From the IMG/VR virus record IMGVR_UViG_3300043639_000076, positions 1-64,000 of that record: a stretch of DNA of 64,000 bases; one strand, 5' to 3'. A program made the position numbers and the translations under genes. The DNA is from a virus. Shown here in pieces: positions 20,401-61,844 of this stretch (position 1 is its first letter; each line of letters starts with the position of its first letter). Below the pieces are notes generated by a model. That model was not told the DNA's origin, searched no databases, and worked only from the letters and a program-made list of their open reading frames with translations.

Positions 20401-20651
20401 TCCTGAACGCCTCGCGCACCGTCTATGGCTCGGGCGAGGTCTACGCCAGCGACTTCCAGCGGGTGCTGGACGCGTTGAACCAGGTCGCCTCCGTGGCACC
20501 GGATACGCTGACCGCGTCGGTGCTGGCGACCGAGACGCGCACGCAAACGGCCGAACTGGTGGCCTCGCTGGCCGACCTCAAGGCGGCGGTCGAGTCAATC
20601 ACCACGCAACTGCGGCAAAACGCCACAGCCCCAGCCAGGATCGCCGCATGA
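14415..20651 (+). CDS. tape measure protein with SLT-like domain
   Basis: The 2078-residue tail length ruler. Residues 1-400 are helical and coiled coil. A hydrophobic stretch lies at about 462-490. An SLT (lytic transglycosylase-like) region lies at about 755-850, with ALGVGQLIPGTA and AAHYNTGP. The residue aligned with the usual catalytic Glu appears to be Asp765, so activity is uncertain. A Gly/Ala-rich zipper spans about 1340-1480. Three tandem repeats of about 90-100 residues occupy roughly 1660-1940. The start overlaps the chaperone gene. The end overlaps the giant fibre gene as ATGA. Confidence 0.93.
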   Translation: MSETRRVVTEIIVDARQAEAGLAAVAAASRAAQREFDKHIAKTLEIDAANKRVKQSGKEASEVLTLSAAGLNRAATAADAYRGRLDPLVFAQNALGKELKNVGAAITATDALLLKRKISDTEAIERTQQFKLRQAELADVMDKLTAKTISVADALTYLKTAHERASEPAKVAAVDADALRLKYDKLYASQKIYAQAVKDIIAARNEEKISIDLAKAALQQEVEALNARDAAIKKGATGGGDAEAARLQALRLKYDDVYRIAKQYKDALNDIAEAEEKAGLGSVEATAAREKARLSMETSVATLKKSMAGPSAADTAAEMNKLRASIDPLFATWQKYQAELTKIAEVEKKVGGITNEANAARARALTTYQKEADAIIGVGKGHEDLDKKMKDGTASAGQMKFATQQLTVQMSQMFSGIATGQPILITLIQQGHQVADVMWATGTSVKQLGEQFMTVLSGALKAMTSPMGLLITGAAALVGSFILLVKYAEDAAQAFNDLKVSLSATRGDYGAVAETIEKDSRRIAASLGLSRDEVTKTMGSIAALPLPAGLNSSLEDLTRTAANLGTVLGSGLAGGLKSVSAALEDPKKAAEAFAGTATGLRTLSGALLRNISDLQNAGDKVGATNVLLVAMKTSAEIAEKQGLTPLGLAMRHLNEAFVDGSKNGKNFFKDLGEGLGGAVAKAIEGVALLVGGINKLYELAGKIPGGVTTLGTILFPFAGAATAAFGIGNGITDFFNPGNGSGGLITGAKNSTAADLALVEKWRQDPRAVRTAVSPANALGVGQLIPGTAAGEGVNPMIPTENIKGMMSYLQKMLNQFHDFDEAAAHYNTGPAGGGKSSAAGQDYLRAMAISNPGGMPQTTIDYIEYWGKFFGMSREQIELGKRIAATENAGMQGPRSVMFRHIDPVGTGGSSVTPDVDPNTGQPRVGANKDTAAGKAQVDAYTASIEALKEQQRQLNKARAEEAITADEHAKRTAQITLLIARETDKMMEANRASVQGNEVSKQTTAADAAMLRNRQEMENQRRNDPTITDAQAAGRLAQQEKDLANAYNQTVIELDKKLAIDDKAAQAVLEGTDATLKQEAAQLALNKANESFVSNSDGHRDAVANLTQKYLEAAGATQKINGAREHMAAVDTTTILKAESEALHMQADAGALYVQHAKDIISVNKEYSRMSPEYRADRLKERDALAQLTQELNNQRAIGQYLAGQFDTMFSTIGTAITQAFTQGQGAAVNWGNVTKAVITQVEQALIQLAIINPIKQMFLGSSIASAPTIFDVLGYFGSGATGGVGNTGSGASAGGASGTKGGGLLGSLSSLASVFSGAKTVGEFTGLTGAGGIFSSTGLFGSAGSVANLFATPVFGSVSATATNTALAGLGPGVYGPATASSYTAAGGAIPSTLGTFAGPAAGVVGGFALGSLAGEGIQGMRGTTGPAPEIGAAIGAGIGTAIGAIFGPIGALLGGLAGGLLGGGAGGFIGPKKASPFSSTMLELTDGRAGLGQTLGQGVDTAAERAALMDDITKLNTYLDNTGLKLTGLGKVAQIGSNTPGGFQDPSKFANLGTAFSELRFGSATDTDLNKYLKDRSFKDDAAFQEAIKGYRDLVDNTIPGLMAFGKTTGSVNDAIKELNDAFNAGIAKAKEYGLATDALSKAQADGEKKIRDQANTTISNVDFQFRMRKRIAEGTSDPQSLELENFDQGAKEQRDAFKAQMVGLFGDAFTSTTYYADQMKLLEETLGAERAAIVKRYADQIVQQEKQMRQINANLDVRAMNASSASAVDKALFTFDTNARQERESFGDSLAGIYGEAYRKTEAYAKEMQRLETVQGMERVAIVKQYADALKEAEKNIMRGDASFRIRINNATPGISDLDKRLYAFDINAQNEREDYARSLINVYGESYATTVDYANHIALLEKALGAERLAIVTESNDAIAQQTEAAQNKAASAIQSLVNYATGLQTSSASPLSAQDQYTLARNKFNAVAGAAAAGDYNSITQLQGFSDTFLNASRTVYGSGEVYASDFQRVLDALNQVASVAPDTLTASVLATETRTQTAELVASLADLKAAVESITTQLRQNATAPARIAA

Positions 20652-23600
20652 CGAAGATCAGCGAACTCGACCCGCTGCACGAGTTCACGCCGACCCTGGA
20701 TCTAATCCCGGTTGTTCACGCCGGCAAAACTTATTCAATGCGGGTCAGCGACTTTCAGATATCAGCCGAGGGCAGCACCTTCCTGCCCACCACCGGCGGA
20801 TATTTGACCGGCCCCCTCTATTTGTACGATCTCCCAACATTTCCCAACGAAGCCGCGACCAAGGGCTACGTCGATAGTCACGTCCAGGCTGGTGGACCCT
20901 TCCTGCCCATAAGCGGCGGGCAGATGCTGGGTAATCTGTCCCTGGTGGGCGATCCCCAGGAAAGCCTGGACGCGGCCTCGAAATCCTATGTCGATTCACT
21001 GATGGCGGCGACCGCGTCGGGCGGCGTCACGGTCATGGAGTATACCATCAAGACCGTGATCGCCTCTGGCGATCCTGGCACTGGCGCGATCAACTTCAAC
21101 GTATCCAATCAGAGCGACGCGACGGCGCTCTACATCGATCAGGTCAGCAACGCCGGCCGCGATTGGACACTTTTGTTGATGGCGCTGAAGGTTGGCCAGA
21201 AGGTCAGCATCCAGCCGCTCGGCGATCATAACCGTGTCGCGCGTTGGACGATCGCCGCGCCATCGGAAGACATGAGCGGATACACCATCCTGCATGTCAC
21301 GCCGGTCAGCGCGACCGGCTTTCCGCTGCCGAACAACACCACCGTCGCCATCGCCATTCAGGGCGATACCGTCGCTGAGTTCCTACCGTTATCCGGCGGT
21401 ACGATGCAGGGCGGGATTTCGTTCGGTCAGCGTTTCGGCGCGAACCTGACGGACCTGACGCAGCACATCTCTTTGTATGACGGCTGGGGCGGTTTCAACG
21501 TTACCGGCAACAGCCTCAACATGATCGCCGGTAGCGTGAACGTGTTGTCCTCTGATGGTAGCTGGCTCTACGCGAAGGCACCGATCTACCTGCCGCGCAC
21601 GCCGATCGACCCATGGGAAGCCGCCCCAAAGAATTACATAGACACCAATTTCGCGCCCATCGCGAACGGTGGGTATGTGATGAAGACCGGCGACCAGATG
21701 ACCGGTGCGCTTTATATCACCAGCGATACGGATGCGACGATCCGCGTGATCGGCACGGGCGGCGACTGGCCCGCGGTCAAGTGGAACACGACGACGGCGA
21801 CCAGCGCCGCCGGCTATTTCGAGAGCCAACGCTACGGCAAGCCGCGCTGGAGCATCGAGTTCGGCACTGGCGGCGGCGAGCCGGGTGGCAACGTCGGCAC
21901 CGACTACATCATGAACCGTTTCGATGATGACGGTAACTGGATCTCGCCGACGCCGCTCGTCATCCGGCGCGGCACGGGTGCCATCGAAACCTACACGCCG
22001 CTGTATCTGATGGGCGACCCGACCACGGGTCTGCAAGCCGTGCCGATGCGGTGGGTGACGAACAACTTCGCGCCCATCAAGGACGGCGGGTATGTCGCCA
22101 AAACCGGCGATGTAATGACCGGCCCATTATCGATTACCGGCACCGGAACGCTGACGATCACCGGGGAAACCAACGAACTGCCGATGTTGGTGATCGACGC
22201 GACCAACACGTTTCTGTCGAACCCGACGATCTACATCGCCAACATGGGGACGAAGAACGAAGGCTGGTGGCCGGGGATCACCTTCGATCACAAGAAGAAC
22301 GTCGGCCTCGCCAACGCCCTCGCCAGCCAGGTGGACAGCGTCTCGCGCTGGGTGATCGAGTTCGGCGACAGCGCGTATGAGGCGGGTGGCAACACCGGTA
22401 CCAACTTCACGCTGTTCCGTTGCGCCGACGACGGAGGTTATATCGCCGGTCCCCAGCCGCTGCATATCGAACGCTCCACCGGACAGGTGACCATTGGTGC
22501 GACGCACGGCACCTCGCCGCTGACCTTGCTCGACATCGAACAGTGGAACGCGCCGCTCAAGACGCCGCACCCCGATACCATCCTGATGCTGAACGGGAGG
22601 GCGACCGGCCCGAACACCAACATCGAGATAGTCACCTACGGCGGCGCGAACATCATTCGCGGCTACGCGGCGGAAGGCTCGCCTGGGGCCGTGAGGGCTA
22701 CCGGCCAGAACCGCAACATGCTGATCGTCACCGGCAGCGGCTACGATGGAGCGGTCTGGCAGGGCGGGCGCGGGGCCATGTGGTTCACCGCCAGCGAGAA
22801 CTGGACGCCAACAGCCAACGGCACGCAAATCTCCTGGCGCACCACGCGCAATGGTCAGACCGCCCAGCAAGACTCGATGCTGTTGTCGAACGCCGGGGCA
22901 CTAAGCCTCGCCTATGGTGGCCTCAGTTTTGGCAACGATACGGTCGGCGCACCCCAGGATACCTCGCGCCACATCAACCTCTACAACGGCTTCGCCGGGT
23001 TTAGCGTCACGGGCGGAACACTCAACATCGTATCGGGCTGGGATACGCATTTCGTAAGCACTGACGGAACGGTGTTGTTGCAGCTTAACAACGCTGGCGA
23101 CCTGGAACTGAAACGCGATCCGGTCTTCCCGATGCACGCCGTCAACCGGGGATGGATCGAAACCAACTATCTGACGACCACACAGGCCGACGCTCGTTTC
23201 GTGAATGTAACCGGCGACCAAATGTCTGGTCCATTGGCGATATCGGCGAGCGGGAACGCGTGGTCCTTGTTCGTCGGCGGGAACGTGGGCGGCGCTTTCC
23301 CAGCCGCCAACTTTGGCCAGTATATCGGCTACAACGTGACCGGCGGCGGTGAGGCCAGCTTCGTCAATTCATGGGTATCCGCGCAAACCAGTTTTCAGTG
23401 GTGGCAGATGAACGCCGCTGGCAACGCGCTCATCTCGCTGGCGACACTGGGACCACAGGGGAATTTCGCCGCCGTTGGCAACATTGATGCTGGCAGCGGC
23501 ACGACCCGGAATAACAGCATCAGGGTCAACTCAGCGAAGACCAACTGGCCTGACGCCACCAGCGGCGCTGGTTACTCCTGGCTCGCTGGCGGCTCGCAGC

Positions 23601-26600
23601 GTTGGTTCTTTGGCACTGACGGCTACCCAAACGAAGATGGCTCCGACGTTGGCACCGCGCTGACGCTGCATCGTTACGGCGACGATGGGCGCTACCTTGG
23701 CTCCGCGTTCAACGTGGATCGCAAGGTTGGAAAGGTTTACTTCCAGGGCGGCATCTACTTCTGGAACGAGATCGGCGCGGACTTTGGTGGCGCGGTCGGC
23801 GCGAACAACTGGGATGTCAGCAAACACATCAGGCTGCACTACGCGGGCTACGGCATCTCGGTCACCAGCAATCGGTTGAACTACGTGGCCCCCGCCAGTA
23901 GTCGGCATGAGTTCGTGGTGAACACCGCCGACGTGGCCAACCTGGACGCGACCGGGCTGCACATGAACAACCTGGGCATCAGTCTGGGTGAGTTTCAGGT
24001 AGCTGGCGACTATGACCTGTCGAAGCACATCCTGCTTTACGATGGTGCCGGTCAGCACACCTACGGCCTCAACGTCCAATGGAACGGGGTCAACCCGGCG
24101 CACTTCAACTACGTCGCCGGATTGGATGGGGTTCACCAGTTCCTGATCCAGGGCACCGGGCTGATCGCCACTTTCCAGCCCGCTGGTCTGCTGATGAACG
24201 CGGGAATCAGTTTCGGCGGCGCGATCACCGGGAACAACAACACCGATCTGACGAAGCATATATCGCTCTATCCAAACCACGGTATCAACGTCTCCTACCG
24301 TGGCCTGAACGTCGTCGCCGGGTCCACGTTCTTCGTCAACAACGGCGTCACCATCGTCGCGCTCAACGACACGACGGTGACCGTCAATGGCGGCATGACC
24401 TTCGGCAACCTCACCACGCCGAGTAGCAGGCCCACCGACCTCACGAGGCATCTGTCGCTGTTTGGTGGCGGGGGCGACGGAAGCTATGGCTTCTCGATCA
24501 CCGCCAATCGCCTGAACATCGTCAGCCCCGTCTGGACGTATTTCAACAGCGGCGGCAACGACATCGCCCGGTTCGACGCCACCGGTCTGACCTTCGACGG
24601 CTTCTACACCGTCACGCTGGGACGCGAGCCGACAGCCGATATGGAAGCGGCGACGAGGAAGTACGCCGATGGGGTGCTGGACCGCGCTGGCGGGCCGTTC
24701 CTGCCGCTGACGGCGGGATCTGGGATGGCGCTGACCGGCATGCTTTACCTGCCGCACACGACGCCCACGGTCGATGAACACGCGACGCCGTTGTTCTACG
24801 TGCGGAACGCCGATCAGGTCTTGCAGGACCAGATATCGGCGGTCGCCGCCGGTAACCTCGTGTTCTATGGCCAGTTGCACCTGAACGCCGCGGGAACGCG
24901 CGACGAGGTGTTCTACAAAACCATGCTGAACCTTCCCAACGGGCCGTTGCCCGACCCGACCACGCTGGTCAAGGGAAGTTACTTCATCGTGGTCGAGGCG
25001 GGCATTCCACCAGCCTCTGGAACGCATGTTCCGCCGATGCCAGCGGGCACCTCGCAATACGTGCGCGGCGATTGGTTCATCTCCGATGGCGAGGACTGGA
25101 TCTTCCTGCCGCTCGGCCTGGTCTACTTCACCGCGTCGGCGGTGGCGGTCGATCCGCCGGTCCAGGGCACCTACAATGTGCAGGACACATTGCAGTGGTT
25201 CGACGCCAACGACCTGAAAATCGCTGGCGGAACGATGCAGGGTCATCTCTATCTGGATGGCATTCCCACCACCGGCACCCAGGCGGCGAGCAAGGACTAC
25301 GTCGATAACAAAGCGTTTCTGAAGCTGACCGGCGGGGTACTGAGCGGAGGACTCAGTTTCGGTTCCGAGGGCGTTCCTAGCGGTAACCCCACCGACCTGT
25401 CGCGTCACATCGCGCTGTGGGGCACGTCGCTGGGCTTCTCGGTCACCGGCTACCAACTGAACTACGTGACCGACACGCTCACCAGCCACGTTTTCTACGT
25501 TGGTGGCGGCGAATCGATGCGAGTTAATTCCACCGGCCTGAAGATCGGCACGGGAAACATTCTCACGCTCGCGCGCGATCCACAAAATGACTACGAAGCT
25601 GCAACGAAGCACTACGTCGATGTGCAGGGCAACGCTTTTCTGAAGCTGACCGGCGGCACGATGCTCGGCGACATTCAGATGTCGGGGTCGTATCAGGTGC
25701 GTTTCGGCAACGCCAGCCAGTTCATCGGCGGCGGTCCCGCCGACGCGGCATGGTTCGGCGGCGTCAACTATCACATGGGATCGTGGAACGGCATCGGCAT
25801 GACGACCTCATGCGGCGGGCAGTTCGTTCCACCCGGCATATACGGCATCGTGTTCGGCACACGCGATGGAAACCTCGACCTGCACGGGCAACTCGCTGTC
25901 CATGACAGCCGGAACGCCGTGAAGAGCCAGATCCAGACCATCGGCTTCTTCAACGTGGGCACCGACCAGACCATCGAGGTGAACGGGATATCGATCATCC
26001 CGTCGCTCGGGTCCATCGCCAATGGCGGCGGCTCGGTCAACGTGAACGACCGCTTCTATGACGACTACGGCAACATCTACACCGCGCTGGCGACCTCCGG
26101 TGGCCAGGTCACCGACCTCCGCATGGACAGCGCGCGGGCGACGATCTGGAACGCCAACGCCAACCCGGTGCCGTTGCACGCCATCGCGCCTTCAATCGCG
26201 TTCAACGTCAGCGTCAACATCAACTGGAGAAACCCGAACCGGCTGATGATCCAGCACACCAACGGTGTGGCGGCTCTGTATGGCTACCGCGGCACACAAC
26301 TGGATGGTGGGATCGGCGGCATCCTGCTTGCCGGTGGCGGTCCCGGCGTCACGGTTGGCGGCACGTTGTGGATGCAGAATGGCCTGGACTTCAACTATGC
26401 CGTATCTGGAAATCCGCAGGATACATCTCGCGGTATCACGTTTTTTGGCCCACAGACCGGATCGAACTACGGCATCGTCGTCACCGGCTCGACGCTAAAC
26501 TACAACGTCTACTCGCCAGACAATAAGCACGACTTCTGGGCGGGCGGAAACTTGCTGTTCCGCATTTGGGGTGGTGACAAGGTCTATTCGTATTTGCCGC

Positions 26601-29600
26601 TGACCGCGAAAACATATGTGCAGATTGACGGAGTTCCTGGGCCGGGAGCGAACGCGCAACTGGTGCTGAACGCCACATCAGGCGGGTCATCATTTATTTC
26701 GGCTTACAATGGCGGTTCCATCCGTTGGCAGATGTTTTTCTCCGACGCGGGCGAAAGCGGCGTGGCGACGGAAAACGGAGGCTCCAACTTCGTCCTCAAT
26801 GCGTTTCGGAATGACGGAGCGTTCATCGGTCAACCGATGTGGATCACGCGCGGCGGCGATACTTCGTTCACCGGCTACGTCTACGTCGGCAAAGACCCAT
26901 GGCAACCGACCAGCGCGGTGACGCTGCGCTACCTCCAGGGAAACTACACCACGACCGCCGATGGAGACGCCCGGTGGGTGAACGTCAGCGGCGACGAGAT
27001 GCACGGGCAGCTTGTCGTGAGCGGCACGCTGTTCGCCAACGGGCGGTTCCTGTTCAACGACTCCAACGGCGGCAATCCATGGCCCGCGGCGGGGGCCGGA
27101 TATCTCGGCTGGAACAGTCTGGGTTGGTGCGGCGAGGTGGACTTCGTCAACGGCTGTGACTGGGTGCCGAATGGCGCGGGCTTCGATTGGAAGCAGATCG
27201 TCTCGGGTGGCGGCATGGCCACGCTGGCGACCCTTCGCGCGGACGCGATTCTGCGGCTTTATGGGCTTGGCGTCGGCTATCCCGGTCTTCCAGGCGGTGG
27301 CAACACCATCGGCTTTGTCTGGACCGGCAGCAACGCCGCCAGGATGTTCGTGGATGGTAGCGACGTAGGGCTTCTGGCTGGGCAAGGCTGGGTCGATGGT
27401 AATTACCTGAAACTATCGGGCGGGACGGTTACAGGCGTAACTACCTTTAACGCCACGACGTTCTTCTCACCCGCTATCGTGGTGAGCAACGGCGCGTCGA
27501 ATTTTCAGGTTCTCCCAAGCCTCGCTGGCGGCTCCTACAACGGGATCGTGCAGACCGGTGATGTGGTTCTGCTCGCGGCTGGTCCAGCGAATGATCTGAA
27601 CGCGCTCACGCTCACGGCATGGAGTAATTACCCTATCGGCATTCGCATCGATGCCGTGGCGAAAAGCATAAACATGCGGGCCGACAACGGAATCACGGCC
27701 AACAATACCCTGTACATCGCCAACAATCAGAACCTCCAGTTCAACGACCCATTCGGAACTGGTGTACGAATGATTATCGGCGGCGACAAGCATTTCGGCG
27801 TCTATTCCAATGATACCGATGGCGGCGTCATAGCGGTCTGGGATTTCTATTCGCGCACGACCAACCCGGCGCAGAACTTTTGGCTGGAGACGTGGTTCCA
27901 GCGGATGACGCACCACGGCAGCGGGCTGTCATGGTCTGGTGGCGATTACCGGCAAGGTTCCGTCTACACTGATGGCAACTGGGGAACCTTGATCAGGGGC
28001 CTCCCAGGCAACATCGCGGATGTCGCTTTCGCTGATCGAGACGGCAACATTCCGCTTCGCATCGTGTTCGGCAATCAGGTGAAACTGGCGGGGCCGACCG
28101 CCTTTGTATCCGCTGACACACTCACCCTTGGCCGCGATCCATCGGCGGCGATGGAAGCGGTTCCGAGACAATATGTCGAAGCCAACTTCGCGCCAAAAAT
28201 TGGCGGTGGCTATGTCGCGAAATCCGGCGATGTGATGAGTGGGGGCCTTGGATTTGGCCAGGTCAACGTACAACCGACCGACACCTCGCACCACATCAGG
28301 CTGTACGACGGGGGCGTGGGGAACCACTATGGCTTCAGTGTGTCATGGGACGGTGTCTCCATCGCGCGCCTGAATTATGTCGTGACAGAACCAGGCCATA
28401 CCTATCACGCATTCTGGAACGGGACTTTAGAAACTCTTCGTATCGGCCCGAACGGTGTGGATATCCGGTCGCCCGACACATCGGATATGGGTCAACTTCA
28501 GTTGCGCCCCAGCAACTGGGGTAGCAAGCTGTCGAGCAAGCTGCGCTTCTATGGCTCGTTTGATTATGCCGGGGGCGACTACGGCCCGCGCATGGTCGCC
28601 TCGCTGCGCGGCGGTTACGAGGGCGGCGCGTGGTATAACGAACATCTCGATGTCTGGATCACGAACCAGGTGATCACTGGTCTGGACACCGACGCCATGC
28701 AGACCAGGGTCGCGCGCTTCACGGCGGGGATGGTCACAATAGACCGAGACCTCACGGTCACCGGGCATGCCGGGTTCCGCTCTGGCATCGACTTCAACCC
28801 AAATGTCGTCACCAACTCGACCGACCTGTCAAAGCATGTTGACCTGTATGCCGGGGTTTATGGGTTCTCAGTAAGTAATGACGGAGCGACGAACCACGTC
28901 AGCGGCGGGTTCCACAACTTCTATGTCGGCGGCGGGGGTTCGGTCGCCACATTCACATCTGCACTCGCGACCATTAAAACAAACCTTCAAGCGAACGGAA
29001 TTATTTCAATTCCGAATGGCGGCATTGATCTCGTCAATGGCGTGTCAGGCCCGTATGACAGTTCACGCGGCATCACGTTCTGGGGTTCTCCGACCGGACC
29101 TAATTACAGCATCGTCGTCAGTGGCAGCACGTTGAATTACAATGTCAACAACGTCGTTGATCATCATGACTTCAATAGTGGTCAGGCGCTGCGGTTTCGC
29201 ATAAGCGATACGATCACCTCGTATATGCCGATGATCGTGAACGGCAACCTAAGTGTATCCGCCGGCTCACTGGCGGTCAGCTATGATGTTACGTTCGGAT
29301 TTAATGGTGCCGGATACTCGGCCATTTATATGAACGCCGCGCCGAACACCAACCGCATCACGTACTACCAGTCGAACGGCAAGACGCGCTGGCTCTATGG
29401 CACGGGTGCCGGGGCCGAGAGCGGCGGCAACGTGGGATCGGACTTCTTCCTCGCCGCCTATAACGATGCTGGCACGGCGATACACACCTCGCTGTATTTC
29501 TCTCGCGCCACCGGCCTGGGGACCGTGGAGGGCGATCCAACCGCGCCGCTTGGAATCGCGACGAAGCAATATACCGACAACAAGTTCGTTGCCATTTCAG

Positions 29601-31135
29601 GAGGGAATTACGTCAAAAAAGACGGCGACACGATGACCGGATCACTGACCGTGAACCCCGATATCACCGCGTCTGGGGCGATGTATGCCGGGGTATTCTC
29701 GTCTGTTCAGGCCAATGGCTATCCGCAATTCCGTTGGACGAATACGGCGGCGGGGGTGAACCTAAAGAAGCTGGTCGCCTTCATAAGTCCGGCCGGCGAC
29801 TTCACGATGCAATTTGAGAATGACGCCAGCAGTCAGGCGGCTGCGTTCCTTCAGGCGACGCGCAGCGGCTACGCCGTGGCGACGGTGACGTTGACCGCGC
29901 CTAACATTTATCTGAGCGGCGTCACGCGCGCGAACGACATCTACAGCCCGGTCTACAGGTTCACCAACACGGGCGGCTACATCTACGGCGACACCAACGT
30001 CACCCAGTTCATTCAGGACAGTGGCATGTGGCGCTGGGAATATGCCAGAGCCACGGGCCAACTGACGTGGATGCAGGGCGGCACCAACCTGACCTTGTTT
30101 CAGGTCACTCCGAATGGCGCGCTTTGGAACAACGATTATCACTCGGTCGGCGGCAACGGAATCATCTACCGGGGCTTCACCGGCAACGCCATCGCGTTCA
30201 ACTGGGATAGCGCGAACACTTGCATCAACCAATACATCGACGGCTCATGGCAAGGGACCGTCGCCACACGGGGCTGGGCCGGTGCCACTTTCAAAGGCAT
30301 CGGCGCATACACGCCAAATCAGGTCGTCGATTACGGTTCCGGTCCTGTTTTTGGTGGCGTGACGATCACGGGTGACGCCGTCACGCACAACGTCTTTTGC
30401 GACGGCAGTGTCGGCATCAAGTATCGGGCTTACTCCAACGTATTCACCGCGTTCGGTTGGAATGGCCGCGTGCAATGCTGGCTCGATGGCGGTGGGGCGT
30501 ACGTCGAACTGCGCGACACACGCGATTACATACCAAACCAGAACGTTGATGTCAGTGCCGGTCCTACTTTCAGCATCGTCTGGCTCAATAATAACGGCAT
30601 CGTCTACTCACCCTGGAACGGTTCCGCCGTCGCCCTCCCGTGGGACGGTTATAGCCTCAGTTTTAAGCTGGACGGAGGTGACCGTGGACGGCTTCTCAGG
30701 TCGTTTGATACCGGGGGCGGCTGGACCGGTTGTCATCAGTTGATGCTAAACGGTAACGGAACCTGTGGCATCTGGTGGCCTGACAATAACTTCGCGGGTT
30801 GGACAATCGTCTGGTCCGACCGTCGCCTGAAAAGCAACATCCGGCCCGCCACCATCGACGCGCTTGGCCTGATCAACAGACTGACGGTCCACGAACTCGA
30901 TCTTCTGCCGCCGGTCCCTCACGCCGTCAGCCAGCACTGGGATTGCGCGCTGATCGCCGACGAGGTGGAAGAGGTCATTCCACTCGCCGTCGTCAACTAC
31001 GAAGAAGGCGAAGGATACGCGCAGATCAGGGAAATGCCGCTGATCGCGACGATGGCACGCGCTATTCAGCAGTTGACGGAACAGAATGTCGCGCTCATGG
31101 CGCGCATGGAACAACTTGAACAGAGGATGCACTGA
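20648..31135 (+). CDS. giant tail fibre, repeat-built, with C-terminal S74 chaperone
   Basis: A 3495-residue receptor-binding or side fibre. It alternates KxYVD-type linkers (EAATKGYVD, DAASKSYVD, QAASKDYVD) and GDxMTGPL strands with about eleven copies of a module of the form G-x-S-F-G ... D-L/T-S-x-H-I-x-L-Y ... G-F-S-V-T ... L-N-Y-V. The last 110 residues form an S74 intramolecular chaperone that auto-cleaves: SDRRLK places the Ser/Lys dyad at Ser3390 and Lys3395, followed by a coiled coil. The size is exceptional for a siphophage fibre. Confidence 0.93.
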   Translation: MTKISELDPLHEFTPTLDLIPVVHAGKTYSMRVSDFQISAEGSTFLPTTGGYLTGPLYLYDLPTFPNEAATKGYVDSHVQAGGPFLPISGGQMLGNLSLVGDPQESLDAASKSYVDSLMAATASGGVTVMEYTIKTVIASGDPGTGAINFNVSNQSDATALYIDQVSNAGRDWTLLLMALKVGQKVSIQPLGDHNRVARWTIAAPSEDMSGYTILHVTPVSATGFPLPNNTTVAIAIQGDTVAEFLPLSGGTMQGGISFGQRFGANLTDLTQHISLYDGWGGFNVTGNSLNMIAGSVNVLSSDGSWLYAKAPIYLPRTPIDPWEAAPKNYIDTNFAPIANGGYVMKTGDQMTGALYITSDTDATIRVIGTGGDWPAVKWNTTTATSAAGYFESQRYGKPRWSIEFGTGGGEPGGNVGTDYIMNRFDDDGNWISPTPLVIRRGTGAIETYTPLYLMGDPTTGLQAVPMRWVTNNFAPIKDGGYVAKTGDVMTGPLSITGTGTLTITGETNELPMLVIDATNTFLSNPTIYIANMGTKNEGWWPGITFDHKKNVGLANALASQVDSVSRWVIEFGDSAYEAGGNTGTNFTLFRCADDGGYIAGPQPLHIERSTGQVTIGATHGTSPLTLLDIEQWNAPLKTPHPDTILMLNGRATGPNTNIEIVTYGGANIIRGYAAEGSPGAVRATGQNRNMLIVTGSGYDGAVWQGGRGAMWFTASENWTPTANGTQISWRTTRNGQTAQQDSMLLSNAGALSLAYGGLSFGNDTVGAPQDTSRHINLYNGFAGFSVTGGTLNIVSGWDTHFVSTDGTVLLQLNNAGDLELKRDPVFPMHAVNRGWIETNYLTTTQADARFVNVTGDQMSGPLAISASGNAWSLFVGGNVGGAFPAANFGQYIGYNVTGGGEASFVNSWVSAQTSFQWWQMNAAGNALISLATLGPQGNFAAVGNIDAGSGTTRNNSIRVNSAKTNWPDATSGAGYSWLAGGSQRWFFGTDGYPNEDGSDVGTALTLHRYGDDGRYLGSAFNVDRKVGKVYFQGGIYFWNEIGADFGGAVGANNWDVSKHIRLHYAGYGISVTSNRLNYVAPASSRHEFVVNTADVANLDATGLHMNNLGISLGEFQVAGDYDLSKHILLYDGAGQHTYGLNVQWNGVNPAHFNYVAGLDGVHQFLIQGTGLIATFQPAGLLMNAGISFGGAITGNNNTDLTKHISLYPNHGINVSYRGLNVVAGSTFFVNNGVTIVALNDTTVTVNGGMTFGNLTTPSSRPTDLTRHLSLFGGGGDGSYGFSITANRLNIVSPVWTYFNSGGNDIARFDATGLTFDGFYTVTLGREPTADMEAATRKYADGVLDRAGGPFLPLTAGSGMALTGMLYLPHTTPTVDEHATPLFYVRNADQVLQDQISAVAAGNLVFYGQLHLNAAGTRDEVFYKTMLNLPNGPLPDPTTLVKGSYFIVVEAGIPPASGTHVPPMPAGTSQYVRGDWFISDGEDWIFLPLGLVYFTASAVAVDPPVQGTYNVQDTLQWFDANDLKIAGGTMQGHLYLDGIPTTGTQAASKDYVDNKAFLKLTGGVLSGGLSFGSEGVPSGNPTDLSRHIALWGTSLGFSVTGYQLNYVTDTLTSHVFYVGGGESMRVNSTGLKIGTGNILTLARDPQNDYEAATKHYVDVQGNAFLKLTGGTMLGDIQMSGSYQVRFGNASQFIGGGPADAAWFGGVNYHMGSWNGIGMTTSCGGQFVPPGIYGIVFGTRDGNLDLHGQLAVHDSRNAVKSQIQTIGFFNVGTDQTIEVNGISIIPSLGSIANGGGSVNVNDRFYDDYGNIYTALATSGGQVTDLRMDSARATIWNANANPVPLHAIAPSIAFNVSVNINWRNPNRLMIQHTNGVAALYGYRGTQLDGGIGGILLAGGGPGVTVGGTLWMQNGLDFNYAVSGNPQDTSRGITFFGPQTGSNYGIVVTGSTLNYNVYSPDNKHDFWAGGNLLFRIWGGDKVYSYLPLTAKTYVQIDGVPGPGANAQLVLNATSGGSSFISAYNGGSIRWQMFFSDAGESGVATENGGSNFVLNAFRNDGAFIGQPMWITRGGDTSFTGYVYVGKDPWQPTSAVTLRYLQGNYTTTADGDARWVNVSGDEMHGQLVVSGTLFANGRFLFNDSNGGNPWPAAGAGYLGWNSLGWCGEVDFVNGCDWVPNGAGFDWKQIVSGGGMATLATLRADAILRLYGLGVGYPGLPGGGNTIGFVWTGSNAARMFVDGSDVGLLAGQGWVDGNYLKLSGGTVTGVTTFNATTFFSPAIVVSNGASNFQVLPSLAGGSYNGIVQTGDVVLLAAGPANDLNALTLTAWSNYPIGIRIDAVAKSINMRADNGITANNTLYIANNQNLQFNDPFGTGVRMIIGGDKHFGVYSNDTDGGVIAVWDFYSRTTNPAQNFWLETWFQRMTHHGSGLSWSGGDYRQGSVYTDGNWGTLIRGLPGNIADVAFADRDGNIPLRIVFGNQVKLAGPTAFVSADTLTLGRDPSAAMEAVPRQYVEANFAPKIGGGYVAKSGDVMSGGLGFGQVNVQPTDTSHHIRLYDGGVGNHYGFSVSWDGVSIARLNYVVTEPGHTYHAFWNGTLETLRIGPNGVDIRSPDTSDMGQLQLRPSNWGSKLSSKLRFYGSFDYAGGDYGPRMVASLRGGYEGGAWYNEHLDVWITNQVITGLDTDAMQTRVARFTAGMVTIDRDLTVTGHAGFRSGIDFNPNVVTNSTDLSKHVDLYAGVYGFSVSNDGATNHVSGGFHNFYVGGGGSVATFTSALATIKTNLQANGIISIPNGGIDLVNGVSGPYDSSRGITFWGSPTGPNYSIVVSGSTLNYNVNNVVDHHDFNSGQALRFRISDTITSYMPMIVNGNLSVSAGSLAVSYDVTFGFNGAGYSAIYMNAAPNTNRITYYQSNGKTRWLYGTGAGAESGGNVGSDFFLAAYNDAGTAIHTSLYFSRATGLGTVEGDPTAPLGIATKQYTDNKFVAISGGNYVKKDGDTMTGSLTVNPDITASGAMYAGVFSSVQANGYPQFRWTNTAAGVNLKKLVAFISPAGDFTMQFENDASSQAAAFLQATRSGYAVATVTLTAPNIYLSGVTRANDIYSPVYRFTNTGGYIYGDTNVTQFIQDSGMWRWEYARATGQLTWMQGGTNLTLFQVTPNGALWNNDYHSVGGNGIIYRGFTGNAIAFNWDSANTCINQYIDGSWQGTVATRGWAGATFKGIGAYTPNQVVDYGSGPVFGGVTITGDAVTHNVFCDGSVGIKYRAYSNVFTAFGWNGRVQCWLDGGGAYVELRDTRDYIPNQNVDVSAGPTFSIVWLNNNGIVYSPWNGSAVALPWDGYSLSFKLDGGDRGRLLRSFDTGGGWTGCHQLMLNGNGTCGIWWPDNNFAGWTIVWSDRRLKSNIRPATIDALGLINRLTVHELDLLPPVPHAVSQHWDCALIADEVEEVIPLAVVNYEEGEGYAQIREMPLIATMARAIQQLTEQNVALMARMEQLEQRMH

Positions 31136-47553: not shown

Positions 47554-48911
47554 AAATCGCTGGCGAAGAGGTTGTCGTGTCCCTGGAGGCACGGCGTCTG
47601 GGGGCGGAGAAGCTGAACGCCTGGATCAATGACCCGCCGCCGACGCCGGTGCCGGATATCACGCTCACCGAGGACCAGCTTCGCGCCAAACAGGAGATGG
47701 AAGCCAGCATCGAGATGCGACGGTTCCATCTGTTGACCGGGTCGGCTGGCACGGGAAAGACCACGCTCGTCCAGATCATGGCGCGCGAGGCTTACGCGCG
47801 GGGCCTGATCGTGCGCCTCGCGGCACCCACGCACAAAGCCGCCGGCGTGCTGCGCGCCAAGCTGGGACTGCCGTGTGGCACCATCCACAGCCTCCTGTCG
47901 CTGCGGCCGAAAGCCGATCGGGACCGGCAGGTGTTCGTGCGCTCGGCCAACGCCAGACCACTCACGGGCGACCTGTTCATCATTGACGAGTGCAGCATGC
48001 TTGGCGAGGAGTTGATGCGCCATGTGCGGCGTTTGCTCAATGGTCACGCGGTTATCCTGGTGGGTGATCCCGCCCAGATCCCGCCAGTGGGTGAGGCGAA
48101 CTCGGAGTCGTTTGATACGGTTCCGGCTTCGCATCTCACGACCGTGGTGAGACAGGCGGCGGGCAACCCGATCATCGCCGCGGCGCAGATTATCCGCGCC
48201 ACCCAGGATGACCCGGACGCGCCGATGGACTGGTCCTGGTGCCGCCAGGAGCGGGTCGGCGACATCGGCGTGTTCCTGCCGCCACGCGGTCAGGCGGATG
48301 CCTGGTTGAAAAAAGCGATCATGTCGGACGCGTTCAAGGAAGATCCGGATTTCGCGCGTTACCTTTGCCACACCAACGATCGTGTCCTGCACGTCAACAC
48401 CCGTGTCAGGACGTGGCTGTTCGGCAAGGACGCGCTCGCCGCGCCGTTCCTGGAAGGCGAGATGCTGTTGATGCGCTCGCCGCTGGTGCTGGACGACGCC
48501 ATCGCCATCGCCACGAACGAAGAGGTGCGGGTGCTGGATATCGATTACGGCTCGCACCAGAACGTCGGCACCTGGGAGATCAAGGTGCGGACGGACATGG
48601 ACAAGGTTTACAACATCCACGTCCCGCGCGACTGGAATGAATACCAGTTGGCGCTCGCGGAAATGCGCGACGCGTGCAAGGGCGGCACGCAGGAATGGGA
48701 AGCGCTGCACGAGTTCACCGCGTCGTTCATCCGCGCCCAGAGCATCTATGCCATGACCCTGCACGCGAGCCAGGGAAGCACCTTCCAGTGGGCGTTCCTC
48801 GACGTGCCGAACGCACGCGCGCGCATGATGGACAACCCGCTGGAGGTGCGCCGGCTCCTTTACACGGGGGCGACGCGCGCGGCGAAGGGTTTGGTGCTGG
48901 TGGGAGTGTGA
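47550..48911 (+). CDS. Dda/RecD2-type SF1B DNA helicase
   Basis: A 453-residue 5'-3' helicase. Walker A is GSAGTGKT (residues 64-71), Walker B is FIIDECSML, motif III is VGDPAQIPPVGE, and the C-terminal motifs include LHASQGSTFQ and YTGATRAAKGLVLV. The layout matches T4 Dda and RecD2-like enzymes, which open forks or remove proteins. The start overlaps the zinc ribbon gene. It is the longest helicase of the operon apart from the VirE-type protein. Confidence 0.9.
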   Translation: MKIAGEEVVVSLEARRLGAEKLNAWINDPPPTPVPDITLTEDQLRAKQEMEASIEMRRFHLLTGSAGTGKTTLVQIMAREAYARGLIVRLAAPTHKAAGVLRAKLGLPCGTIHSLLSLRPKADRDRQVFVRSANARPLTGDLFIIDECSMLGEELMRHVRRLLNGHAVILVGDPAQIPPVGEANSESFDTVPASHLTTVVRQAAGNPIIAAAQIIRATQDDPDAPMDWSWCRQERVGDIGVFLPPRGQADAWLKKAIMSDAFKEDPDFARYLCHTNDRVLHVNTRVRTWLFGKDALAAPFLEGEMLLMRSPLVLDDAIAIATNEEVRVLDIDYGSHQNVGTWEIKVRTDMDKVYNIHVPRDWNEYQLALAEMRDACKGGTQEWEALHEFTASFIRAQSIYAMTLHASQGSTFQWAFLDVPNARARMMDNPLEVRRLLYTGATRAAKGLVLVGV

Positions 48912-48913
48912 TC

Positions 48914-49618
48914 ATGGGTGAAACAATTACAAAGGCAGAATACAACCTTCGTTTTTCTGGAGGATGTAGCATATGTCATCTTCCAGTTTGTCTGATCCCC
49001 AATGGACCAGCTATGTGGCTATGTGAACATGCGGGGTATTTAGGTGATGTGATCATCGAAGATGATCCGCCCTCCACACCTTCGCGGCAAATCCAGACTA
49101 CGTGGCACCTCTATGTATTAACCTGTCATCCAACCGGACAAAGGTATATCGGCCAGACACGCCGTCCCGTCGCGGTCAGGTTTGGTCAACATCTGCAAGA
49201 TGCCTCTTCTCAGAGGTATGATTGGTTGATCGCCAAAGCCATGAGGGAACATGGTCCCGATGCTTTTTCAATCGAGCATGTCGCTTGTTGTCGCTCTCGG
49301 AACGAAGCAAACGAATGTGAGGTGTTGCTGATAAAGCAATATGGCACTTTAGCCCCAGACGGCCTCAACATGACGTTGGGTGGTCATGGACGCAAAGGCA
49401 TGAAGATGTCCGACCAATGGCGCGCCGGTCAAAGTGCGAGGATGAAAGTTATTTCAGACCAGCCAGCGTGGCGAGCGGATGTCAGCGCACGCCTGAAAGC
49501 CAGATGGGCCACCTTATCCCCCGCCGAAAGATCGGCGATTGTGCGTAAGGGTTACCTGACCAGGAGTCGCGCCATTAATCAAACAGGACAACATCCTTTG
49601 TTTGATTTGGATTGTTGA
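48914..49618 (+). CDS. GIY-YIG homing endonuclease
   Basis: A 234-residue homing nuclease. A short Cys-rich start (CSICHLPVCL, LCEHAG) is followed by the GIY-YIG core LYVLTCHPTG and RYIGQTRRPVAVRF, with EVLLIKQYGTLAP later. The C-terminal basic region with SDQWRAGQSARMKV and SPAERSAIVRKGYLTR resembles the DNA-binding modules of such enzymes. It is visibly more AT-rich than its neighbours and breaks the otherwise overlapping gene order, which indicates later insertion. No intron was seen. Confidence 0.88.
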   Translation: MGETITKAEYNLRFSGGCSICHLPVCLIPNGPAMWLCEHAGYLGDVIIEDDPPSTPSRQIQTTWHLYVLTCHPTGQRYIGQTRRPVAVRFGQHLQDASSQRYDWLIAKAMREHGPDAFSIEHVACCRSRNEANECEVLLIKQYGTLAPDGLNMTLGGHGRKGMKMSDQWRAGQSARMKVISDQPAWRADVSARLKARWATLSPAERSAIVRKGYLTRSRAINQTGQHPLFDLDC

Positions 49619-57759: not shown

Positions 57760-57896
57760 GGTGGGAGGGCCGGCGTCGGAAGAGTTTACGGTTCGCCGCC
57801 AAACGCCGAGTTTCGTTCTTTAAGCTGTTGTTCTTATTATTCCATCCCAAGAAACGAGACGAGACGATTGTGCATTCCAGTAAAAGGGAACCCTCC

Positions 57897-57943
57897 TACA
57901 ATGGATAACGCGGCGGGATAGACGCCGCGTCATCCATGGGAGA
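57897..57943 (+). promoter_or_regulatory. leader of PEP-CTERM genes: -10, hairpin and Shine-Dalgarno
   Basis: A TACAAT-like -10 (57897-57902) lacks a clear -35. The leader folds: ATGGAT 57901-57906 with ATCCAT 57932-57937, and ACGCGGCG 57908-57915 with CGCCGCGT 57923-57930, one mismatch between. GGGAGA follows at 57938-57943, so the hairpin could hide or expose the ribosome-binding site. Confidence 0.5.
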
Positions 57944-57950
57944 CATCACC

Positions 57951-58676
57951 TTGAGAAAGTTACTCTACGCGGCCACGGCTCTGAGTGCCATGGCCTTTGT
58001 GCAGCCCGCGTCGGCGGTGTTGCAGATCAGCGCCGACATCAACGGCGCGCTGTTTAGCTGCCAGGATCAGGCGGCATGCGACACCAACGTCACGCCTGGC
58101 ATCCTGTCCATCGCCGATCAGACCATCGGCGGCGTGCAGTTCCTGGGATCGGCGCAGACCCAGGTCATCGGCGCGACCAACTCACTCAACACCTCGACTT
58201 TTCAGGTCAACAACCTGACCGGCGGCACGGTGCCGATCACGGTGGCGATCTCGGGCACCAACTTCCAGGGTCCGGTGCTGGCGTTCTCGGCGTCCGGTTC
58301 AGGGACGTTCCAGACCGCCGATGGGTCATCGGCGACCTTGACGTTCTGGGGTAGCGCGCTGAACGAGCAAGGCGCGGACACGCCCACCGATCTGCCGGGT
58401 GTGTTGCTGGCGACGATGACGGAGGTGGCGACGGGCGACACGGATTCGTTCAACCAGGACTTCAGCGGGCCGTTCGCGGGACCGGCGCTCTACTCGATGA
58501 GCCTGGGAACGTCGGGTTTCCTGACGGCTGGCGGGTCGCTGGTCGGTCGGTCACAGGCCATCGTCACCCGTGAGGATGTGCCGGAACCGGCCAGCCTCGC
58601 GATCCTGGGTGCCGGTCTGGTGGGTCTGGGGCTGACGCGCCGCTTCCGGCGCGATAGCTTTGAGGTGGCGGCATGA
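57951..58676 (+). CDS. secreted protein with PEP-CTERM sorting signal (1)
   Basis: A 241-residue protein. TTG 57951 is preferred since GGGAGA lies 7 bases before it. ATG 57936 has no site. N-terminal signal peptide with ALSAMAFVQPASA cleavage region, then a Thr/Gly/Asn-rich beta domain, then the sorting signal: VPEPASLAILGAGLVG, followed by an RRFRR basic stop. In the known pathway host EpsH/exosortase recognises PEP-CTERM. The substrate is probably exported to the cell surface or matrix. Confidence 0.85.
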   Translation: MRKLLYAATALSAMAFVQPASAVLQISADINGALFSCQDQAACDTNVTPGILSIADQTIGGVQFLGSAQTQVIGATNSLNTSTFQVNNLTGGTVPITVAISGTNFQGPVLAFSASGSGTFQTADGSSATLTFWGSALNEQGADTPTDLPGVLLATMTEVATGDTDSFNQDFSGPFAGPALYSMSLGTSGFLTAGGSLVGRSQAIVTREDVPEPASLAILGAGLVGLGLTRRFRRDSFEVAA

Positions 58677-59473
58677 ACAGGGCGACAACCTTTCACGCGG
58701 CCATCGTCGGAGCCATGGGTGTCCTCGCCGTCGCCCTGGCTCCGACTCCGGTCGCCGCGCATCTCGTGTTCCAGGGTGGTATCGATCTTGGTGGCACCGG
58801 GTTGGGCGCGGTCGATACGATTTTGACCATGAATGGTCAGGGATCGGAGACTGAGGAGTCGGGCAAGGTATCGTGGAACGGCACGACCAACGTCGTCGTG
58901 GGCGATCCCACGGGCGTCGGCGGGCCGTTGGCGGGCGGGGCGTATACCCTGGCTGGGTCCACGACGATGACCGGGCAGAACCACACGGTGACCATGACGC
59001 AAACCGGCTGGACCGCGGGGGAGGGGCTTGGCATCGTGTTCAACCCGGCGGAACCCGGCCCGGTGGGTGGGGCGGCGAACGCGATCACGTTGCGCCAGAT
59101 GACCATGACGATCTACGCGTCAGACGGCTCGGTGCAGTTCACCGCGCCGTGGTCGGAAGGGCCGTTGACCTTGCTGGCGGTCGATCCTGGGACCGGCAAT
59201 ACCGGTTATCTGTTCACCCTGGATCAGGCCGAGACGAACGCGCTCAACCATGTCACGGGGATCGGGCCTGATAGCCGCGTGGGCCTGTTCGCCTACGTCA
59301 CCGATGCCACGGGCGGTAACGAGACGTTCTTTGGCACCGTGATCCAGGCTGGTCTTTGCGACGACTGCACGATCACCCCGGTGATCGTGGACACGCCGGA
59401 ACCGGTGTCCATGGCGTTGCTGGGATCGGGGCTGGTCGGCCTCGCCGTGGCGCGTCGGCGTCGCCGTGCCTGA
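58673..59473 (+). CDS. secreted protein with PEP-CTERM sorting signal (2)
   Basis: A 266-residue protein that overlaps the first by four bases. Signal peptide with VALAPTPVAA, a beta-rich Gly/Thr domain with VTMTQTGWTAGEG and a cysteine pair (CDDC), then the sorting signal TPEPVSMALLGSGLVG and a basic RRRRR tail. The sequence is not a duplicate of the first beyond the signals, so it is probably a paired surface component. Host exosortase would be needed. Confidence 0.85.
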   Translation: MNRATTFHAAIVGAMGVLAVALAPTPVAAHLVFQGGIDLGGTGLGAVDTILTMNGQGSETEESGKVSWNGTTNVVVGDPTGVGGPLAGGAYTLAGSTTMTGQNHTVTMTQTGWTAGEGLGIVFNPAEPGPVGGAANAITLRQMTMTIYASDGSVQFTAPWSEGPLTLLAVDPGTGNTGYLFTLDQAETNALNHVTGIGPDSRVGLFAYVTDATGGNETFFGTVIQAGLCDDCTITPVIVDTPEPVSMALLGSGLVGLAVARRRRRA

Positions 59474-59549
59474 TGGTTTGGCCCGGTTGGCGGCGCTCGT
59501 GCTGTTCATCTGGGCGGTGATTTGCCTCGCGGTCTGGACCGTGTGGTGA
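59466..59549 (+). CDS. possible tiny membrane peptide
   Basis: GTG start overlapping the end of the second PEP-CTERM gene. Encodes 27 residues, mostly one hydrophobic helix (AALVLFIWAVICLAVW). Could be a real small membrane protein or chance. Confidence 0.3.
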   Translation: MPDGLARLAALVLFIWAVICLAVWTVW

Positions 59550-59623
59550 CGAGGTTGGCCTGGATATCCCCACCCCCTCCAGGCCGACAGGCGATGGTCT
59601 ATCATCGTCACGACCCCCAACTG

Positions 59624-59671
59624 GACCCGGTTTCCGCCTCTTGCCAGAGGGCTGGAGCCGGGTCTTTTTTT
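59624..59671 (+). terminator. intrinsic terminator closing the PEP-CTERM unit
   Basis: GACCCGG (59624-59630) pairs with CCGGGTC (59658-59664), with inner pairing of CCTC and GAGG, followed by seven T. It ends the rightward unit and faces the end of the leftward beta-helix gene. Confidence 0.88.
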
Positions 59672-60848
59672 AGTTCGACCAGCGGTCGCCGGGAATCACC
59701 CCCAGCACCGTGGTGCTGTTCATTTCCTTGCTGAACACTTTCAGGGTCTGCGGTTTGGTGGACAGTTTCGGATTGAGCGCGGCCCAGGCCGCGAAATCGG
59801 CGAGGATAGTGGCGTGGTATTGCTCGAGTGGAGAGAGGACCGGTGATGGCGGTGGGTCAGGCGTGGGCATGGGTGGGATCGGCGGTGGCGGCTGTTCTGG
59901 TGGCGGTGGCGACGGCGACGGTGGTGGTGATGCTCCTGATCCAAGGAAAGCGATGGGAGCGAGGTCGAGGACCGGCCGATCCGCGAGAGTGACGATGTTC
60001 GACGGGGTCACTGGTCCCGACACAGCCTGTGATCCAAACACATTGATGTTAGTATATGTAACGGGCACGTTAGTCGCGTTCCAGAGGCTGGTGCCACTGG
60101 AGCGGTCGTTGATGATGGTGTCGCCGTCGATCGTGGCGCTGGCGTTGGCGATCAGGTTGCCTTCCTCGCCGTAGGCGATGATGGCGGGGTTCTGCGTGTT
60201 CGGGCCTTGCTGGATGATGTTGTTGGCGATCGTGGCGTTACCGCCGTTCGGCAGGTCGATGGAGTAGCTGGCGCTGCCGGCGTTGTCGAAGATTCGGTTG
60301 CCGGTGATGACGTTGTTGGTGGCGCGGGATTTGACCTCGTGGCCGATCACGGCGTCGTGGATATAGCTGTTGGTCAACGTGAAAGTGTTGAGCGGGCCTA
60401 CGTAGATGTTGTGGGTATGGCCGTCGCCGCCGATCCCGTTGTGGCTGAATTCCGAGTTGGTGATGGTGATGTTGCCGGCGGGATCGGCGGCGGCGAGGAT
60501 GCCGTCCTGGTTGTCGTGGATGAAGACGTTGTCCAGCGTGAGGTTGCCGCCCTGGTAGCGAATGCCGGCCCCGTTGGCGTCGGGCACGGTCACGCCGGAT
60601 ATGTCGAAGCCGCTGATGGTGACGTTGCCGCTCTCGGTGATGTAGGCCTTGCCATCCGGCGGTTGCGCCGTGGCGAGAAGCTTCACCCAGCCGCCTTGGG
60701 CGATCAGCGTCAGGTCGTGGTCGATCTGGAGCCAGTCGTTGGTGTAGGTGCCGGCATTGACGGTGATGGTGTCGCCGGCGGATGAGGCGGCGACGGCGGC
60801 TGAGATGGTGGCGTAGGCTTGGTTTTGTCCGACCGAGAGGATGGCCAT
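59670..60848 (-). CDS. right-handed beta-helix protein
   Basis: A 392-residue protein. ATG 60848 with AAGGAA on the leftward strand is chosen over 60992, which would extend into the divergent gene. Residues 20-270 show the repeat pattern of a pectate-lyase-like beta-helix (ITESGNVTISGFDISGVT, GGNLTLDNVFIHDNQDG). A Pro-rich linker follows (about 315-345), then a C-terminal domain with EQYHATILADFAAW. Candidate surface or depolymerase-type protein. No catalytic residues are clear. Confidence 0.75.
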   Translation of the reverse strand: MAILSVGQNQAYATISAAVAASSAGDTITVNAGTYTNDWLQIDHDLTLIAQGGWVKLLATAQPPDGKAYITESGNVTISGFDISGVTVPDANGAGIRYQGGNLTLDNVFIHDNQDGILAAADPAGNITITNSEFSHNGIGGDGHTHNIYVGPLNTFTLTNSYIHDAVIGHEVKSRATNNVITGNRIFDNAGSASYSIDLPNGGNATIANNIIQQGPNTQNPAIIAYGEEGNLIANASATIDGDTIINDRSSGTSLWNATNVPVTYTNINVFGSQAVSGPVTPSNIVTLADRPVLDLAPIAFLGSGASPPPSPSPPPPEQPPPPIPPMPTPDPPPSPVLSPLEQYHATILADFAAWAALNPKLSTKPQTLKVFSKEMNSTTVLGVIPGDRWSN

Positions 60849-60885
60849 TTGGTGGTTCCTTGTGTGGTCGGGTCGGAGGTGTCGC

Positions 60886-61413
60886 ATGTCGAAGCTGAGT
60901 GATCCAGACGTGGCTGAAATCGTACTGGCGCTGAAGGCGAAATATGACATCGACGTACTGGTCGAGACGGGCACGTTCGAAGGTGACAGCACTCTCTGGG
61001 CGGCGGAACGATTTCGTCACGTCTTCACCATCGAGGTGTTCTCGGACTTTCAGGATTTGGCCCGCGAACACTGCGCCAGTCATGCCAATGTGACGTTTCT
61101 TTCCGGCAACACGCGGTTCGTCCTGCCGTTCGTCGCGTCGGTGCTGACGGGGCCGTCGATGTTCTGGCTGGATGCCCACTCGGCACCCGGCCTGTTCGGC
61201 GAGGCGGATGACTGGCCGGTCATGGAGGAACTGGCGGTGATCGAGCAATCACAATTCCATCATGTGATTCTAATCGATGACGCGCACTGTTTTATGCCGG
61301 GGACGCCGCATCCGGCGTGTCCGCCGCTCGGCGCGGTGGAAAAATGGGCGCTGTTGTCTGGCTACGACTGCGCGGTCAGGGGCGACGTGATCGTGCTGAC
61401 GCCGGTCGAGTGA
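60886..61413 (+). CDS. Rossmann-fold (SAM-methyltransferase-like) protein
   Basis: A 175-residue protein from ATG 60886 with CGGAGG before it. DVLVETGTFEGDSTLWAAE resembles motif I of class I methyltransferases, and FWLDAHSAPGLFG with HVILIDDAHCF marks a family of phage and bacterial sugar- or nucleotide-linked methyltransferase-like proteins. Divergent from the beta-helix gene. Substrate unknown. Confidence 0.65.
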   Translation: MSKLSDPDVAEIVLALKAKYDIDVLVETGTFEGDSTLWAAERFRHVFTIEVFSDFQDLAREHCASHANVTFLSGNTRFVLPFVASVLTGPSMFWLDAHSAPGLFGEADDWPVMEELAVIEQSQFHHVILIDDAHCFMPGTPHPACPPLGAVEKWALLSGYDCAVRGDVIVLTPVE

Positions 61414-61530: not shown

Positions 61531-61590
61531 TTTTTCGGCGGTTTTCGGCGGTTTTCGGCGGTTTCAGGCGGTTTCAGGCGGTTTCAGGCG
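61531..61590. repeat. 10-bp tandem repeat array
   Basis: Six units: GTTTTCGGCG three times (first preceded by an extra T run), then GTTTCAGGCG three times. The array reaches into the stop codon of the leftward HTH-like gene. Confidence 0.9.
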
Positions 61591-61844
61591 GCGCTCGGAC
61601 GCCGGCCGGCGACCCGGCGGATCGGCGGCGGCGGGTTGTCGAGGTGCAGCGCGGCCAGCCGCTCGACCCAGGCCACGACATCCTCCGGCGGCGCGGTGCG
61701 GCCGTCGCACCAGTAGATCGCCGTCGTGTGACCGATCTGGATCTGTTCGGAGAGCGTCGCGCGGGTCCAGCCGACCGTGTCCATGGCCGCGCGCAGCCGT
61801 TCACCGAGTGTCGGTGGCGTCGGTGTCTTCCTTGGCTTTTTCAT
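61584..61844 (-). CDS. HTH-type small protein, end of right leftward cluster
   Basis: An 86-residue protein. TLGERLRAAMDTVGWTRATL, then SEQIQIGHTTAIYWCDG fit a phage XRE-like helix-turn-helix, followed by a Pro-rich C-terminus whose end lies in the 10-bp repeat array. Overlaps the next gene by 44 bases. Likely a regulator. Confidence 0.6.
   Translation of the reverse strand: MKKPRKTPTPPTLGERLRAAMDTVGWTRATLSEQIQIGHTTAIYWCDGRTAPPEDVVAWVERLAALHLDNPPPPIRRVAGRRPSAA

Follow-up and report, generated by a model that had tools for sequence, protein, structure and literature searches.

Exosortase substrates, with their C-terminal PEP-CTERM tails, have so far been treated as bacterial matrix proteins. 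The window analyzed here, a 64,000-nucleotide stretch of DNA (bases 1–64,000 of a 67,462-base IMG/VR record), encodes two such proteins, A and B, side by side among phage genes. The locus raises the questions of whether A and B are genuine sorting substrates, whether they belong to the phage, and what they might do at the infected cell. No report of phage use of the PEP-CTERM/exosortase system was found in the open-access literature searched.

Two PEP-CTERM genes form one unit in a tailed phage

The window is identified as tailed-phage DNA by genes for a large terminase, portal, head protease, HK97-type major head protein and tape measure. It also encodes an endolysin, sliding clamp, Sak4-like protein, helicases, PrimPol, a VapE-type helicase and a 3,495-aa tail-fibre-like protein; the last is a single open reading frame with repeated tail-fibre matches (20648–31135, + strand), immediately 3′ of the 2,078-aa tape measure gene. 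A GIY-YIG-type homing endonuclease match (48674–49618, +) overlaps the 3′ end of the Dda-like helicase gene. A short protein at 61584–61844 (−) and two in L009 (6595–6864 and 6868–7437, −) have similar HTH-like stretches and are apparently a paralogous set, located towards the contig's right end. The closest isolate phages, compared by TerL, head, tail and portal proteins, stand at about 28–54% and mostly infect Pseudomonadota, with Myxococcus among the portal matches, which we read as a host hint only. A chimera with host DNA, the artefact of which the original prediction had warned, is ruled out, because identical A–B junctions repeat in the independent viral contigs L010, L011 and L074. The features of the locus are listed below.

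57843–57950, +: conserved leader (four-phage alignment and fold), with a TACAAT box at about 57898–57903, a hairpin at 57901–57937 and a ribosome site, GGGAG, at about 57939–57943
57951–58676, +: gene A, 241 aa from TTG (246 aa from ATG 57936), with a signal peptide to about 58016, a predicted all-beta ectodomain and a PEP-CTERM tail
58017–58577, +: A ectodomain, the unit exchanged among phages
58578–58673, +: A sorting tail, VPEPASLAILGAGLVGLGLTRRFRRDSFEVAA, a constant part
58673–59473, +: gene B, with a signal peptide, an ectodomain of type B1 and a PEP-CTERM tail from 59393
58760–59392, +: B ectodomain, type B1, in place of which L011, L012 and L074 have unrelated ectodomains
59466–59549, +: possible 27-aa single-TM micropeptide, MPDGLARLAALVLFIWAVICLAVWTVW, with a GTG start (DNA read by hand)
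59623–59671, +: Rho-independent terminator of the A–B unit (fold)
59670–60845, −: convergent gene for a right-handed beta-helix protein, kept beside A–B in other viral contigs
60841–61413, +: conserved neighbour with a weak Methyltransf_24 match below cut-off, which accompanies the module in both L010 and L011

The prediction of two adjacent secreted-type PEP-CTERM proteins at this place was borne out. Both tails, each made up of a PEP motif, a transmembrane helix and a basic end, exceed the curated cut-offs when analyzed by the C-terminal prediction that had been proposed as a check: against Pfam PEP-CTERM (PF07589, cut-off 20.7 bits), A scores 27.3 in the protein scan and 31.8 in the genome scan and B scores 22.8 and 27.3, respectively, and against TIGR02595 (cut-off 16) they score 22.6 and 21.1. 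A chance PEP motif is very unlikely, because none of 14 control genomes contains a match above cut-off, and is less likely still given the conservation of the tails in dozens of phages; we therefore rejected it. Cleavable-looking Sec signal peptides can be read at both N-termini, with cleavage between PASA and VLQ in A and between PVAA and HLV in B, and the structure model has an N-terminal helix; neither cleavage site has a lipobox cysteine. Both genes are under purifying selection, with dN/dS values of 0.13 for A and 0.25 for B relative to L010 and of 0.02–0.30 over the pairs compared, and the ectodomain is conserved with 21 invariant residues. Judged by sequence, A and B are genuine PEP-CTERM proteins of the exosortase-substrate type.

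A and B share with the bacterial PEP-CTERM substrates (PF07589, TIGR02595; floc protein PepA, XDP1, THxN, EDSAP-1) a signal peptide, the Pro-Glu-Pro motif, a transmembrane helix, a basic end and a variable ectodomain, but differ from them in being encoded by phages that lack an exosortase. No whole-protein match above cut-off was found to the named PEP-CTERM subfamilies (PepA, THxN, EDSAP-1, XDP1 and others), the matches being mostly tail-only and far below it, and none of the ectodomain families A and B1–B8 reaches the cut-off of a named subfamily.

A and B make one transcription unit, with the start of gene B overlapping the stop of gene A (ATGA). Gene A was originally listed at 57936–58676 with an ATG start, but its start is probably TTG 57951, which is likelier since the GGGAG ribosome site fits it and L012 has an ATG at the equivalent position of the alignment. 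The claim that the unit has its own leader and terminator holds fully for the terminator, which comprises a 12-bp stem and T7 (−29.3 kcal/mol, z −3.5) and was overlooked by a simple scan because of its long loop; terminator-like hairpins were also found by eye 3′ of B in L010, L012, L020 and L021. At the 5′ end, the TACAAT box and the conserved leader are present, but no canonical −35 element was found. The folded stretch of the leader reaches −26.7 kcal/mol (z −5.0), and L010 and L011 retain its hairpin, which can also be recognised in L074. The 27-codon GTG frame overlaps the end of B and encodes one hydrophobic helix; L010, L011 and L074 have a frame of equal length that stops at the same position, and the unit may include it as a third, very small membrane gene. 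Overall, A–B matches the moron-like cargo originally described, namely a self-contained unit in a genuine tailed phage.

Distribution of family A among phage backbones

Profile searches found family A in 43 IMG/VR viral contigs. Two pattern scans, which covered 84,980 genomes of bacteria and archaea, found no relative; they depend on short conserved peptides and may miss distant cellular relatives. In addition, 50,697 isolate phages gave no real match to A and 72,556 plasmids none, and neither A, B1 nor B2 was found in isolate phages. PEP-CTERM passes its cut-off in 36 of 39 A-family viral records, and a frame-by-frame check found that every A homologue but one ends in PEP-CTERM. The exception, at 8001–8930 (+) of L036, has a GEPG variant followed by extra residues in place of a terminal PEP tail, which may have decayed or been frameshifted.

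Family A occurs with four unrelated terminase types: phrog_9 (the window, G004, G030, G031, G036 and G037), phrog_15 (G011 and G015), phrog_2 (G024, G025 and G026) and Terminase_6N (G016, G020, G025, G027 and G038). The terminase large-subunit matches G004:C1:50642-52426 and G042:C1:14544-16079 each continue across a single in-frame stop codon, TAG in the former and TGA in the latter. In L050 (G036), A lies 3′ of the terminase and 5′ of what appear by eye to be head–tail joining genes. These comparisons indicate that A is a phage family, carried as cargo that moves between unrelated backbones. Related samples contributed many near-duplicate viral loci, and our counts refer to contigs rather than to independent origins.

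The window contig has no tyrosine integrase, and one is present in 2 of the 39 A-family records, many of which are fragments; as most contigs are incomplete, little weight can be put on a missing integrase or second gene. The suggestion that lysogens use A and B is not supported for this contig. Like phage morons and lysogenic conversion cargo, A–B is a self-contained unit with leader and terminator between phage genes, but family A differs from these in lying mostly on contigs without a tyrosine integrase and in recurring on unrelated backbones as a module with the beta-helix gene.

This neighbour accompanies A–B in L010, L011, L020–L024 and, by DNA, L074, and the association spans at least two backbones, phrog_9 (the window) and phrog_15 (G011/G015). 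The beta-helix protein has a proline-rich linker and a conserved C-terminal part, and no signal peptide was seen in it. Its best plasmid relative (49%), annotated as carbohydrate-binding, is from Roseomonas and serves as a host hint only.

Constant sorting signals and variable ectodomains

A second PEP-CTERM gene lies directly 3′ of A in 17 of 44 A loci, the window included, some of them near-identical. The other 27, some of which are cut short, show no such gene, so the A–B pair is not obligatory. At least eight types of second-gene ectodomain can be distinguished, and most of them share no detectable similarity. B1, the type found in the window, is common only to the window and L010, whereas B2 occurs with three A subclades in the tree, and its profile finds 158 viral contigs. 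The phrog_2 terminase is present in 12–13 of 25 B2 contigs longer than 30 kb, and a tyrosine integrase in 9 of 25 B2-family contigs, which are mostly fragments.

Pairwise DNA comparisons place the breaks in similarity at the borders of the sorting signals. Between the window and L074, similarity runs through the leader and signal peptide to 58022 (the signal junction is at 58017), returns at 58578, the first base of the A PEP motif, is lost again, and resumes from 59386 (the B PEP motif is at 59393) on through the beta-helix gene. Between the window and L011, A is common to both and the B ectodomain is replaced, with similarity back at 59395. L015 and L037 have flanks that are 95–99% identical and retain the sorting signals, and both ectodomains are replaced; L014 and L037 have only the A tail and the whole of B in common (96%), with flanks that lack similarity. 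In L120 and L122, whose flanks are 94–97% identical, divergence is confined to the inside of one ectodomain. The breaks in identity thus lie no more than a few bases from the signal-peptide junction and the PEP motif, a pattern that, read from aligned DNA, indicates that the signals are constant and the ectodomains swapped. Because replaced ectodomains, such as B2, have homologues in other phages, this reflects exchange and not only fast divergence.

The tails themselves fall into classes. Simple motif patterns applied to 56 distinct B2 proteins gave about 23 tails of PEP-CTERM type or a close variant, about 15 of VPLPA/PIPG type, about 14 of VPGPxxGAGLPGL type and 2 of PEAST/PELST type. The tail of some B2-family phage proteins resembles the known VPLPA-CTERM signal (TIGR03370): L126 passes this model (27.6 versus a cut-off of 25.35), whereas the remaining VPLPA-like phage tails fall below the cut-off and the window has no such tail. 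Both adjoining genes of L128 have VPLPA-like tails, and the tail of L111 is nearest to PEPxxWA-CTERM. The VPGPxxGAGLPGL tails, followed by a transmembrane helix and a basic end, are found in the B2 genes of L103, L106, L109, L123–L125, L127, L134, L140–L144 and L146. No NCBIfam model matched the two proteins of this type that were scanned, and a search of plasmids gave one weak match (E 0.1), to an unannotated Microvirga sequence; this tail could be an undescribed sorting signal. The simplest reading would be that one displayed domain is fitted with whichever tail the sorting enzyme of the local host accepts. Beyond the original prediction, the analysis thus adds the family-wide spread, the exchange of variable ectodomains between constant tails, the variety of tail classes and the conserved beta-helix gene next to A–B.

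Possible roles at the infected-cell surface

The structure of A gives few clues to function. The model reaches a pLDDT of 80 for the whole protein and 95 for the ectodomain alone, which is predicted to be all-beta. The best Foldseek matches are jelly-roll or CBM-like folds with TM scores of about 0.35–0.42, all below 0.5, with phage fibre and receptor-binding domains also resembled at low score, and a sequence search of solved structures gave no match. Since the best structural matches are weak, we dropped fold-based assignment and claim no function from the fold of A.

Our best explanation is that A and B are a phage display cassette that uses the host exosortase to remodel the surface or matrix of the infected cell. 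Both proteins would be secreted through the host Sec pathway, with the PEP-CTERM tail holding them in the inner membrane until the host's own exosortase processes them and removes the tail, as established exosortase biology suggests (PMC12188702, PMC9850573), allowing the ectodomains to reach the infected cell's outer surface or its exopolysaccharide matrix. Searches of 39 A-family and 25 B2-family viral records (64 in total) revealed no exosortase gene, so the tails, if processed, are processed by a host enzyme. Host-sorted surface display, for which we infer both exosortase processing and surface location, is very probable.

Recombination within the constant leader, signal-peptide and PEP-tail sequences would swap ectodomain modules between phages, and the ectodomains, by masking or altering receptors or matrix, would exclude rival phages or spare progeny from loss on debris. 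The retention of tags alongside the swapping of exposed domains suggests that the viruses redecorate the infected-cell surface. Two considerations favour exclusion or receptor masking: the recombination of exposed domains resembles that of arms races, and no integrase is seen in most A carriers, such that A and B would act during infection. T5 Llp is a phage surface-exclusion protein, and we propose a comparable role for A and B. P22 SieA is also a phage surface-exclusion protein (PMC10883804). Like these small phage-encoded envelope proteins, A and B would act at the envelope of the infected or lysogenic cell, but they have an exosortase tail, no lipobox and modular ectodomain exchange, and exclusion is, for them, a proposal only. 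As their main purpose, we advance superinfection exclusion tentatively, as the likeliest role, though one that falls somewhat short of an even chance. Lytic infection would give little time for surface display, which counts against our explanation, and ectodomain exchange would also be compatible with adhesion or other surface roles. Taken as a whole, the display-cassette explanation appears to us evenly poised between right and wrong.

The main rival to exclusion is matrix binding, in which A and B would bind or cross-link exopolysaccharide like PepA-type proteins in flocs, causing infected or lysogenic cells to aggregate or to keep virions in the biofilm. In Aquincola and Zoogloea, PEP-CTERM proteins keep exopolysaccharide attached to the cell (PMC9850573, PMC12188702), and such a role would suit the polysaccharide-type relatives of the beta-helix neighbour and the weak CBM-like jelly-roll matches of A, while the integrases of the B2-family contigs would permit lysogenic use. 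However, a matrix role alone does not explain ectodomain exchange, and beyond the tail no named floc-protein family is matched at its cut-off, and we consider this role rather unlikely.

Alternatively, abundant phage substrates could act as decoys that saturate the host exosortase, leaving host PEP-CTERM proteins and matrix unanchored and easing the release and spread of progeny. The constant parts are indeed the sorting signals, the tail classes vary among phages and could track the host enzyme, and no phage exosortase was found; yet a decoy needs neither a conserved ectodomain with its invariant residues, nor purifying selection, nor ectodomain exchange, and the conservation and constraint of the ectodomain make this reading improbable.

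Passenger host DNA, whether a recent bacterial gene capture or an assembly chimera with no phage role, is very improbable: PEP-CTERM proteins are normally bacterial and some B types may come from host repertoires, but the same junctions recur in independent contigs, the scans used found no family A member in the cellular genomes, L050 has A among its structural genes, and both genes are under constraint. We give equally little credence to ectodomains in or on the virion, with the tail merely a membrane hold during assembly, since the low-scoring resemblance to fibre and receptor-binding domains is opposed by the Sec signal peptides, the exosortase-type tails, and a leader and terminator of the unit's own, away from the tail genes of the window.

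Returning to host-sorted display, unrelated phages of exosortase-bearing bacteria may share an exchangeable display system with constant signal peptides, host-matched tails, including the VPGPxxGAGLPGL class covered by no NCBIfam model, and recombining ectodomains that specify the competitors or surfaces met, a generalization that we hold as nearly, if not quite, an even prospect. If true, the match between tail class and host exosortase class would offer a possible hint of host range, and the swapped domains would provide a direct handle on the function of PEP-CTERM ectodomains, still largely an open question. Phages that hijack a host sorting enzyme and recombine the domains it exposes would be taking over the surface of environmental Gram-negative bacteria by a new route.
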